From: a virus
Strand: one strand, 5' to 3'
Virus record (IMG/VR): IMGVR_UViG_3300030116_000149
Location: 1-36,354 of that record
DNA: 36,354 bases
Position numbers and translations under genes: made by a program. Below are positions 24,370 through 31,656 of this stretch, in pieces. Each line of letters starts with the position of its first letter. Position 1 is the first letter of the stretch. Under the pieces are notes generated by a model, which saw only the letters and a program-made list of their open reading frames with translations, did not search any database and was not told the DNA's origin.

Positions 24370-24589
24370 ATCGTCTCCTTGGTGTATCTTCGTCCACCCA
24401 CAACCACTTGTGATCATCTAAGCACTGGAGCATGTCCAAGTACTCACGGTTGGTCACGTCTTCGTTATGCTTCGGGACACCGTTGATTAGCAGTTGTTCA
24501 AACACGTAGTCATCGCCATCGTGATTCAGATGAAAGCTGTATTCATCGCCAGTGTAGCCACTATAAAACTCATGGTCATATCCGATCAT
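24353..24589 (-). CDS. Acidic hypothetical protein (78 aa)
   Basis: An ATG follows GGAG by about 8 bases. The protein is rich in Asp, Glu, His and Tyr (YDHEFYSGYTGDEYSFHLNHDGDDY) and ends in RRRYANQN. No domain is recognised. It overlaps the 55-aa gene upstream by 14 bases and the basic small protein downstream by 17 bases. An acidic/basic neighbour pair could interact, but this is not shown by the sequence. Confidence 0.65.
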   Translation of the reverse strand: MIGYDHEFYSGYTGDEYSFHLNHDGDDYVFEQLLINGVPKHNEDVTNREYLDMLQCLDDHKWLWVDEDTPRRRYANQN

Positions 24590-24743
24590 TGTTCAATCTC
24601 CTATTCTGTTCGGTGTCTAAGATTCGCATGGCTTGCTGTAGCTTGTCAACGTCATCGTGAGTGCGTCTACCGTCATGCTGTAGTTTGTACATCACTTCCC
24701 ATGCTTTGAGAATGTCTTCTCGCTTTGGTTCAATCATTTTCAT
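24576..24743 (-). CDS. Small helical hypothetical protein (55 aa)
   Basis: This short gene starts after AGGAGG (7 bases) and overlaps the next gene by 14 bases. The product MKMIEPKREDILKAWEVMYK continues with LQHDGRRTHDDVDKLQQAMRILDTEQ and RRLNNDRI, so it is fully helical and charged, perhaps a short coiled-coil dimer. It is easily missed by length cut-offs. No family was recognised. Confidence 0.6.
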   Translation of the reverse strand: MKMIEPKREDILKAWEVMYKLQHDGRRTHDDVDKLQQAMRILDTEQNRRLNNDRI

Positions 24744-24754
24744 CTTACTTCCTC

Positions 24755-25396
24755 CTATGCTGCTTTCGCAATTAGTCCTAACATCTTTTTACCGTGTGCT
24801 GGATATGCTATCACAGCTACCGACTTATTCCAACACGCTCGACAGGACGCACATTTGCCTTGTCTGGTGTACGCTTCACACACTGTCATACCGTCGGCAG
24901 CATCGTCTGCAAATGGCACAATGGTGCTCGTTGTCGCACCGTCGATAGTCTCGCCAGTGATGCTATCAGATGACAGACGGACTACCACGTTGGGCAATGC
25001 TTCCATCCCAGCGATCACATCGGCAAACTTCGCAAACTTGTGCATGCGAGTAGGTAGCCAGTGATTGACCCATGGTGTGCGCTTCATCACTTCCAGCATC
25101 TTTTGAGCCAGCTTGATTGAGTACATATCGCCAGAGTCAAACCAGCGGAAATAGCGGTCATTGTCTAACTCTGCCACCATATCATCTACCCATGAATCAC
25201 GCTTCCAATCCTCACGATTGTGCTCGCGTGGTGCTTTGACATTCGGAAATCGATAATTGCCCGTTGTGGCATAGCATCCAGCGCATGCTGGTACTAGTTT
25301 ACCGTCGTCGCCTACGCTCCCGGCGCATGTCTTGAGCGCTTCTAGTGACCACGACCGGCATGGCATCTTGCCAGCTTTTGATAGTTTGATTGTCAT
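24755..25396 (-). CDS. GP88-like cysteine-rich phage protein (213 aa)
   Basis: The ordered motifs LKTCAGSVGDDGKLVPACAGCYATTGNY, RYFRWFDSGDMYS, WLPTRMHKF and CEAYTRQGKCASCRACW resemble the phage 'gene product 88' family. Two Cys groups (one near residues 25-41, one near 173-189) could bind zinc or an iron-sulphur cluster. I start at the ATG at 25396, which has GAGG upstream; another in-frame ATG lies 15 bases earlier. It is the first gene of the minus arm after the control region, so it is probably very early. The function of the family is not established; a metal-dependent enzyme is possible. Confidence 0.7.
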   Translation of the reverse strand: MTIKLSKAGKMPCRSWSLEALKTCAGSVGDDGKLVPACAGCYATTGNYRFPNVKAPREHNREDWKRDSWVDDMVAELDNDRYFRWFDSGDMYSIKLAQKMLEVMKRTPWVNHWLPTRMHKFAKFADVIAGMEALPNVVVRLSSDSITGETIDGATTSTIVPFADDAADGMTVCEAYTRQGKCASCRACWNKSVAVIAYPAHGKKMLGLIAKAA

Positions 25397-25426
25397 GTGT
25401 TTTTTCCTCATATGTATATGGTGCCC

Positions 25427-25454
25427 ATTGTACTCTCATGGATGACCATTGCAA
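25427..25454 (-). promoter_or_regulatory. Possible early promoter for the minus arm
   Basis: On the minus strand, TTGCAA (25454-25449) is followed by a 16-base spacer and TACAAT (25432-25427). The -10 is 5/6 and the -35 4/6 of consensus. An inverted repeat, TCATGGAT (25436-25443) with ATCCATGA (25469-25476), flanks the -35, as an operator might. It lies 31 bases ahead of the first minus-arm ATG. It is weaker than the other promoters. Confidence 0.4.
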
Positions 25455-25568
25455 CACCATAGAATACGATCCATGATATCTCCAGAATCTTGAGGTTTCT
25501 GCAGATTGTCTATTGTTGGCATGGTGTGTGCTTATGGCTCCACAGGTCCTACACTGGCTCACACACTT

Positions 25569-25583
25569 TGTCAACACTTGACA
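25569..25583. repeat. Palindromic operator-like site 1
   Basis: TGTCAA-CAC-TTGACA is a perfect 6-bp inverted repeat with a 3-base centre. It is followed by TCTCGTG. The sister site at 25636-25650 has the same arms and nearly the same right flank (TCTTGTG), 67 bases away. Two-fold symmetry of this size suits a dimeric DNA-binding protein. Confidence 0.55.
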
Positions 25584-25635
25584 TCTCGTGTCGTCTGTGG
25601 TTGCGCCTCGTGTCGCTACATTAGTCCGGCCCTCG

Positions 25636-25650
25636 TGTCAACGCTTGACA
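25636..25650. repeat. Palindromic operator-like site 2
   Basis: TGTCAA-CGC-TTGACA repeats site 1 with one changed centre base. It overlaps one of the four CTCGTGT copies (25632-25638). No recognisable regulator gene is encoded in this genome, so the binding protein could be from the host or from an unrecognised early gene. Confidence 0.55.
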
Positions 25651-25878
25651 TCTTGTGCGGACTATGGTTGGCCCAACATTGGCACACTTCTTGCAGCACA
25701 GGGCCAATTGTCTGACAAATGTTGACACGGGGGAGGGTGTTGACTTGTGTTAACAATTGTAGTAGCCACTCACGCACAAAATAGGTGAAAATTAGGAATA
25801 TTACCTCGTGTTTTAACGACTGTAAGTCATTGATTAGCCTTGCGGTTGTGACTTGTGGCGCAACAATGGAAAAATAAC

Positions 25879-25907
25879 TTGACTTTTGTGTAGACTTGTG
25901 TTATACT
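25879..25907 (+). promoter_or_regulatory. Sigma-70-type promoter for the structural arm
   Basis: TTGACT (25879-25884), 17-base spacer, TATACT (25902-25907) with an extended TGt. The predicted start is about 20 bases before the small terminase ATG at 25936. The core TATACTATAG is shared with the promoter at 16602-16630. Confidence 0.75.
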
Positions 25908-25935
25908 ATAGTTGTAATTTGGGACAATTTGTGTT

Positions 25936-26340
25936 ATGACCGCTTCGACGCAGGCTAAGCCTACAGAAATAAAAAAGCGTGGTCGTGGCAGACCCCGGAA
26001 GTCAGAGATAGCCGCTGTAAAACCCGGAAACAAAGGGCAAGTGGGTAGACCAAAGGGTGACGCTGCTATCATCAACGAGTACAAAGCTCGTATGCTGGCT
26101 TCACCGAAGTCAAAAAAAGTCCTAGAGACGATATTTGATGCTGCTTTGGACAATGAACACAAGAATCAAGCGGCAGCATGGAAGCTAATCATGGACCGTA
26201 TGCTACCAGTAGGTGCATTTGAGAAGGACGTGGTTAAGGACGCAGGTAGAAACGCTATTCAAATCAATATTACTGGTGTTGGCACTGTTGACGTGGGCGA
26301 CAACGAGGTCATCGAAGGGGAAATCGTAGATGAAGCTTAA
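25936..26340 (+). CDS. Terminase small subunit-like, with AT-hooks
   Basis: The N-terminus holds two AT-hook-like motifs (KRGRGRPRKSE at about 14-24 and GRPKGD at about 38-43), followed by helices (IINEYKARMLASPKSKKVLETIFDAALDNEHKNQAAAWKLI) typical of small terminases that recognise the packaging site. It is the first gene of the plus arm and precedes the large terminase by two genes. The ATG has only a weak GGGA upstream. A 3' overlap couples it to the endolysin gene. The role is assigned by motif and position. Confidence 0.72.
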   Translation: MTASTQAKPTEIKKRGRGRPRKSEIAAVKPGNKGQVGRPKGDAAIINEYKARMLASPKSKKVLETIFDAALDNEHKNQAAAWKLIMDRMLPVGAFEKDVVKDAGRNAIQINITGVGTVDVGDNEVIEGEIVDEA

Positions 26341-31106: not shown

Positions 31107-31347
31107 AGGTGGACTTAAGAAATGGTTTGCAGAAGAGTGGGTAGACGTTAAGACTGGGAAGAAATGTGGACGCTCCGGTAAGGAGAAGAAGAAACGTCCA
31201 TATCCCTCATGTCGCCCCAAAGCTGTAGCAGCCAAGATGACAAAGGCTGAAAAGGCATCTTCAGCACGTCGAAAGACTGGTCCGGGCAAAATTAAGCATG
31301 CTGTGACAGCTTCTGGGAGGCGTAGAAAAACCACAAGAAAAGCTTGA
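31099..31347 (+). CDS. Small basic protein, C-terminal half of a split DUF5872-type pair (82 aa)
   Basis: I start at the ATG at 31099 (MAKGGLKKWFAEEWVDVKTG), with GGAGG 5 bases upstream. It has KKCGRSGKEKKKRPYPSC and a KMTKAEKASSARRKTGPGK end: very basic, two Cys, no membrane segment. It overlaps the 58-aa gene by 8 bases in another frame. The stop lies in the -35 of the next promoter. The family is known in phages, the function is not. A virion-internal or DNA-binding role is inferred from charge. Confidence 0.7.
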   Translation: MAKGGLKKWFAEEWVDVKTGKKCGRSGKEKKKRPYPSCRPKAVAAKMTKAEKASSARRKTGPGKIKHAVTASGRRRKTTRKA

Positions 31348-31372
31348 CTTTACTACAAAAGTATGCTATACT
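31344..31372 (+). promoter_or_regulatory. Sigma-70-type promoter for scaffold and capsid genes
   Basis: TTGACT (31344-31349), 17-base spacer, TATACT (31367-31372) with extended TGc. The -35 overlaps the stop codon of the preceding gene. It lies in the only gap of the packaging region and would boost the 84-aa, zinc-ribbon, scaffold and capsid genes, whose products are needed in large amounts. The leader to the ATG at 31402 is about 20-25 bases. Confidence 0.72.
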
Positions 31373-31401: not shown

Positions 31402-31656
31402 ATGAACACCGAGCTTGAAACTTATTTCAACAACTACAATGAACTCTTCAACTCCGAAGGTTTCAAACAACTCGTGCAAGAGCTTTCTGATAATGCACTA
31501 CGACTAGCTGACATTCAGTCAGTCAAAGATGCAGAGGATCTACACTTTCGTAAAGGCCAAGTTGCCGCTTTAGCTTCTGTAATTAACCTACCTAGCACTA
31601 TTGAAGCTGCTAGAGAGCAAGCAGAAGTTGAAGACGAAGAAGTAGAAGATGTATAA
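31402..31656 (+). CDS. Acidic hypothetical protein before scaffold (84 aa)
   Basis: It starts after AAAGGA, just below the promoter. The protein MNTELETYFNNYNELFNSEG is helical, with a KGQVAALASVINLPSTIE segment and an acidic C-terminus (EVEDEEVEDV). Short proteins with the VINLPSTIE-type patch sit between portal and scaffold in related phages; the function is not known. It overlaps the zinc-ribbon start by 8 bases. Confidence 0.7.
   Translation: MNTELETYFNNYNELFNSEGFKQLVQELSDNALRLADIQSVKDAEDLHFRKGQVAALASVINLPSTIEAAREQAEVEDEEVEDV

Follow-up and report, generated by a model that had tools for sequence, protein, structure and literature searches.

A candidate early/late control region and probable replication origin with exchangeable arrays of host-protein sites in uncultured marine T7-like podophages

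In an uncultured marine podophage, the region located between two divergent gene arms appears to be an early/late control region and a probable replication origin, organized around an array of host-protein sites that can be exchanged, and the palindromes that it harbours are best read as tandem pairs of divergent promoters. We hold this composite reading, which is based on sequence comparisons, with moderate confidence. The DNA analysed, hereafter called the window, is the whole of the IMG/VR virus record IMGVR_UViG_3300030116_000149 (36,354 bases), and the control region occupies positions 25397-25935. The region has a conserved frame, in which a leftward early element is followed by the site array, a G-run, an AT-rich block and a strong late promoter. 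We propose that the array of the window would result from the tandem duplication of a divergent promoter pair in units of 67 bp. Transcription of the early (replication) arm would start from the leftward halves of the palindromes and that of the late arm from the rightward halves, these promoters presumably being recognized by host RNA polymerase carrying the housekeeping sigma factor, and melting of the AT-rich block would start replication at this place.

Gene content of the two arms

The phage is a member of an uncultured marine T7-like podophage family. Its leftward arm (25411 to 14055) codes for a GP88-family protein, a ThyX-type thymidylate synthase, a gp2.5-like SSB and a primase-helicase, and also for a family A DNA polymerase, a Cas4-type exonuclease, an endonuclease I and a ribonucleotide reductase. 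The rightward arm (25936 onward) codes for a putative small terminase with an AT hook, an endolysin, the large terminase, and the portal, scaffold and capsid proteins. The control region parts the leftward early (replication) arm from the rightward late arm. The first gene of the early arm (24755..25411, minus strand) was identified by its match to the Gene product 88 family (PF17338). The first late gene (25936..26340, plus strand), coding for an AT-hook protein whose predicted structure is of low confidence, was assigned as a putative small terminase only by its position. The helicase is closest to those of phages of Pelagibacter and Roseobacter, and we infer that the host is an alphaproteobacterium.

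In agreement with the preliminary description of this DNA, no known regulator family was recognized among the genes scanned in the record. No single-subunit phage RNA polymerase was found among the scanned proteins either; the PF00940 signature was silent, but it was silent with the control genomes too. GC skew, put forward earlier as a check for an origin, does change sign at the region, but gene orientation alone would produce the same change. The first ~66 bases of the window recur almost exactly in its last ~66, inside tail genes, which may reflect an assembly overlap or a gene repeat.

Conserved layout of the region in relatives

Scans with GP88 and with the first late gene each yielded about 597 relatives and 80 loci. 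About 70 contigs carry both genes, in divergent orientation and 450-1900 bp apart, and in about 115 IMG/VR relatives this region is again found ahead of the late gene for the putative small terminase. The order of the elements is conserved (site array, G-run, AT-rich block and sigma-70-like late promoter), with the array itself varying. To the right of the array, the conserved elements are the G-run, a block extending from TGTAGTAGCCACTC to GCACAAAATAGGTnAAAATTAGGAAAATTA, and the promoter TTGACT-N17-TATACT. The G-run of the window (GGGGGAGGG, 25729..25737, plus strand) has counterparts in 97 of the 115 relatives, and a conserved block from TGTAGTAGCCACTC to GCACAAAATAGGTGAAAATTAGGAATATTA lies at 25760..25805 on the same strand, where the relatives have AT-rich DNA that ranks among the least stable of their genomes. 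In cultured phage records, neither near nor distant DNA searches found a relative of the region, and no match to the late-gene protein was obtained; a search of Rfam gave no match.

The late promoter of the window (25879..25907, plus strand) is strong and conserved: 112 of 115 contigs have an equivalent in front of the late gene, as against 0-2 in shuffled sequences. A promoter toward each arm had initially been proposed. The rightward one corresponds to this late promoter, but the leftward one, TTGCAA-N16-TACAAT (25454-25427), is no better than those found in shuffles. A second site that looks like a strong promoter, TTGACT-N17-TATACT with TATGC ahead of its -10 element, is located at 31344-31372 (plus strand), upstream of the gene at 31402 with which the scaffold/capsid block starts.

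In G001, G004 and G005, no part of the genome is less stable than the AT-rich DNA next to the array, and this DNA ranks in the top 0.4% for instability (60-nt windows) in the other relatives tested. The AT-rich block of the window is less extreme than those of the relatives, ranking in the top 0.3% at 60 nt and in the top 2.5% at 100 nt.

Palindromes of the window

The exact pattern TGTCAA-n3-TTGACA has only two matches in the 36-kb record, and the reversed control pattern has none, which bears out the initial report of two such palindromes 67 bases apart. Palindrome 1 (TGTCAACACTTGACA, 25569..25583) and palindrome 2 (TGTCAACGCTTGACA, 25636..25650), whose starts are separated by 67 bp, each consist of back-to-back TTGACA boxes. 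Both are part of a 35-nt direct repeat, with plus-strand copies at 25569..25603 and 25636..25670 that have the same start-to-start distance and are 83% identical. With up to two mismatches, nine sites are found in the record as against 2.6 expected, and four of the nine are grouped within 220 bp (25507, 25569, 25636 and 25713). A degenerate palindrome with two mismatches (TGTCTATTGTTGGCA) lies at 25507..25521, and a degenerate third site (TTGTCTGACAAATGTTGACA, 25708..25727) is found 1 nt from the G-run. Two other elements singled out at first are indeed present, but not beyond chance: the third palindrome TTGTC-t-GACAA (TTGTCTGACAA, 25708-25718), with 0.14 occurrences expected, is reached in 14 of 100 shuffles, and TGTTAACA occurs 3 times in the genome for 0.96 expected.

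Alignment with relatives, another of the checks envisaged in the preliminary description, showed that L003, L171 and L004, which are close relatives, have retained the palindromes. Three units at 67-bp steps, the third with one mismatch, are present in L004 versus two in the window, and the 67-bp spacing is found in L003, L004, L165, L170 and L172. The leftward half of palindrome 1 corresponds to a TTGACA-n-GTGTG element shared by 76 of the 115 relatives, whose arrays represent the main types, and it is kept also in relatives devoid of the other half.

The palindromes might be operators, each bound by a dimeric transcription factor of phage or host origin that would switch expression from early to late genes. 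Their perfect 6+6 symmetry and the occurrence of two exact and two degenerate copies are consistent with this possibility, as is the fact that L171 retains all 12 palindromic bases despite an identity of only 77.5% over the surrounding 383 nt. In addition, a 55-residue early protein (24576-24743, minus strand) was found, among the contigs examined, only in the window, L003, L171 and L166, which have the palindrome type of array, and in L085, which has one palindrome; all contigs with 67-bp units in which the early arm is long enough to show it encode this protein. However, this protein is predicted to form a two-helix hairpin, without significant structural match, and may simply travel with the early arm. 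The lack of a recognized regulator family among the scanned genes, the persistence of the leftward half of palindrome 1 in the absence of the other half, and the presence of TTGACA-N17-TA in arrays without palindromes also argue against operators, and we consider this explanation rather unlikely.

A scan of bacterial genomes for paired palindromes yielded matches that are unrelated repeats, and this lead was abandoned. Paired TGTCAAATCTTGACA dyads are numerous in a gammaproteobacterial MAG (JABDCL; L175, L176, L178-L180, L182, L183, L187 and L188), where they seem to form a repeat family of their own, unrelated to the palindromes.

TTGACA boxes as candidate promoter elements

We collected every TTGACA site from the arrays of all types and thinned out similar ones. 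In this set, TA is found at exactly 17 bp in 45 of 105 cases, compared with a mean of 6 at other spacings, and 29 of the 105 sites are followed by an extended -10 motif (TGnTA). The corresponding numbers in the rest of the genomes are 31 and 8 out of 298 for TA at N17 and TGnTA, respectively. The peak at N17 is present in each array type separately, including the arrays without palindromes. A model trained on the relatives, with the window and L003 left out, gives the four palindrome halves ranks 1, 2, 6 and 8 among the 82 TTGACW sites of the window.

On the basis of spacing and model rank, we delineated two leftward promoter-like sites, TTGACA-N17-TAGGAC (25546..25574) and TTGACA-N17-TAGCGA (25613..25641), both on the minus strand, and two rightward ones on the plus strand, TTGACA-N14-TG-g-TTGCGC (25578..25606) and TTGACA-N14-TG-g-TTGGCC (25645..25673). 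One more rightward site, TTGACT-N17-TAGCCA (25740..25768, plus strand), ranks 3 of 82. The palindrome halves fit a TTGACA -35 box with a 17-bp spacer to a TA-type -10 element, except that the two rightward halves have TT rather than TA. None of the four has a full TATAAT -10 (TAGGAC, TAGCGA, TTGCGC and TTGGCC), and they are weak by the E. coli standard. Most sigma-70 promoters of alphaproteobacteria lack the T at -7 of the -10 element, a relaxed -10 being usual in these bacteria (PMC8407463). The sites described here resemble those promoters by TTGAC at -35, the 17-bp spacer and a -10 that starts with TA and lacks the final T, but they differ from them by their arrangement as back-to-back pairs in 67-bp tandem units.

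Given the N17-TA spacing, the model ranks and the shared leftward element, we read each palindrome as a pair of -35 boxes, set back to back and belonging to divergent promoters, the whole arrangement being repeated in tandem. Besides the weak -10 hexamers, it counts against this assignment that the facing promoters of neighbouring units would obstruct each other and that perfect palindromic symmetry would also be expected of an operator. The original suggestion that an early protein of unknown type or a host factor binds the palindromes is thereby modified, the regulator part being weakened and -35 boxes of divergent promoters providing a better fit. A long array of TTGACA-N17 sites with TATGC-type extended -10s was also observed in a 94.9-kb viral contig (L174).

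DnaA-box arrays in relatives

In the relatives, the region harbours 165 perfect DnaA boxes distributed over 69 regions, as against 1.0 in shuffles, and their density drops from 2.08 per kb in the regions to 0.002 per kb elsewhere on the contigs; the array motifs were spotted before they were counted and the array copies are homologous, so that p-values overstate independence. In whole genomes, DnaA boxes are confined to this region. Within arrays they are phased, with spacings of 11, 12, 22 and 33 bp, and 18 of 32 arrays have their last box at a distance of 7-9 nt from the G-run. An independent scan for three clustered DnaA boxes, which made use of no gene of this phage, returned the same late gene, with identities down to 31%, in 34 of 118 contigs, and 191 of 201 boxes were within 900 nt upstream of that gene.

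The basal unwinding layout of bacterial oriC comprises DnaA boxes, a GC-rich spacer, and AT-rich or DnaA-trio DNA (PMC8287927). With perfect TTATCCACA boxes phased by 11-12 bp, an adjoining G-run and then AT-rich DNA of low stability, the relatives of the window have the same layout, and the region is therefore probably a replication origin in this phage family. It differs from oriC in that it belongs to a phage with a T7-like replication set and is situated beside a late operon. Furthermore, the region of the window contains no DnaA box, in the form of either TTATCCACA or TTWTNCACA, and its use as an origin is thus argued from the relatives. The preliminary description had regarded it as the best place for an origin or an early/late switch. 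Both proposals are strengthened by the divergent arms and by the DnaA arrays, G-run and unstable AT-rich DNA of relatives, but the window itself does not provide the boxes.

The primary origin of T7 consists of tandem promoters plus AT-rich DNA. The phage described here shares with T7 a gp2.5-like SSB, a primase-helicase and a family A polymerase, together with an array of candidate promoters beside AT-rich DNA. It differs from T7 in that no phage RNA polymerase was found among the scanned proteins, that its candidate promoters are of the host sigma-70 type, and that they are divergent, whereas those of T7 are unidirectional.

Sigma-54-like arrays

The full sigma-54 consensus is mrNrYTGGCACGN4TTGCW. 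In other relatives, the arrays are made of TGGCAY-N5-TTGCW motifs, with 82 sites versus 0-1 in shuffles. A logo built from 219 plain TGGCA seeds of the arrays reads [A/c]-R-N-R-Y-TGGCA-Y-R...TTGC-W, its flanks also matching the sigma-54 consensus, and the distance from TTGGCAY to TTGCW is 12 bp in 150 of 203 pairs. An interpretation of these sites as 12-bp iterons was dropped once the flanks, too, were found to match. The array sites, flanks included, thus resemble sigma-54 promoters, whose consensus core has been quoted as TGGCACG-N4-TTGCW (PMC2573895), but they are arranged in facing pairs on both strands, with up to nine per array. The window has one such site, TGGCAC-ACTTC-TTGCA (25680..25695, plus strand), an apparent remnant of the sigma-54-type array that is found at this place in L085. 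The latter contig has the left end of the window and palindrome 1, followed by a sigma-54-like array in place of palindrome 2.

Large numbers of sites, namely 5-10 DnaA boxes per array or up to nine sigma-54-consensus sites in facing pairs, which would be odd for working promoters, might indicate that the arrays are decoys that draw DnaA or RNA polymerase holoenzyme from the host. There is a precedent in E. coli, where the clustered boxes of datA titrate DnaA (PMC5835720). A decoy needs no fixed place, however, and the arrays occupy one set position, between the early and late starts and adjoining both the G-run and the AT-rich DNA, from which the last DnaA box tends to keep a given distance. 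We therefore deem this explanation improbable.

Exchange of arrays

On a tree of late-arm proteins from 116 contigs, supported branches indicate at least 16 changes for the sigma-54-like type of array and at least 12 for the DnaA type. The array type is no better explained by the GP88 tree than by that of the late gene (19 versus 18 changes). We found no convincing case of an early gene that follows the array type beyond what lineage explains; the neighbours of the array move together with it. L004 and the distant L165, whose small terminases are 57% identical, have 490 nt of array region in common at 83% DNA identity. L153 has ten DnaA boxes and L155 four sigma-54-like sites, and yet their small-terminase proteins are identical and their large terminases 98.8% identical.

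The latter pair also bears on the possibility that the region serves for packaging, as a pac or cos site bound by the small terminase encoded next. Packaging sites are often located upstream of the small-terminase gene, and the region directly precedes the gene for the putative small terminase with its AT hook and includes a conserved GC-rich run. A change of array type with an unchanged putative small terminase is not what such a site would lead one to expect, and in many relatives the array sites are canonical DnaA boxes, which makes a packaging function very improbable. A cos site in particular was rejected, as most full-length contigs continue straight through the region.

T7-like phages devoid of their own RNA polymerase need another way to open DNA. 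We tentatively envisage that the fixed slot between the early and late genes is an exchangeable docking site, in which arrays for DnaA, sigma-54 or the housekeeping RNA polymerase could be swapped to suit the host and would start both replication and early transcription. We see this as a possibility worth considering rather than as the likelier outcome. A large uncultured family would then have kept one frame and replaced its initiator sites, the expected host initiator being DnaA in some members, sigma-54 in others and the housekeeping RNA polymerase in the window. No published report of such array swapping was found in a literature search that covered subscription journals in part. Outside the family, the Manatee Spring phage MW202796 (L309, 2680-3160) carries, between divergent genes, four TGTCTTATATAAGA-like copies next to a tract rich in C, and this repeat region is apparently yet another array type.
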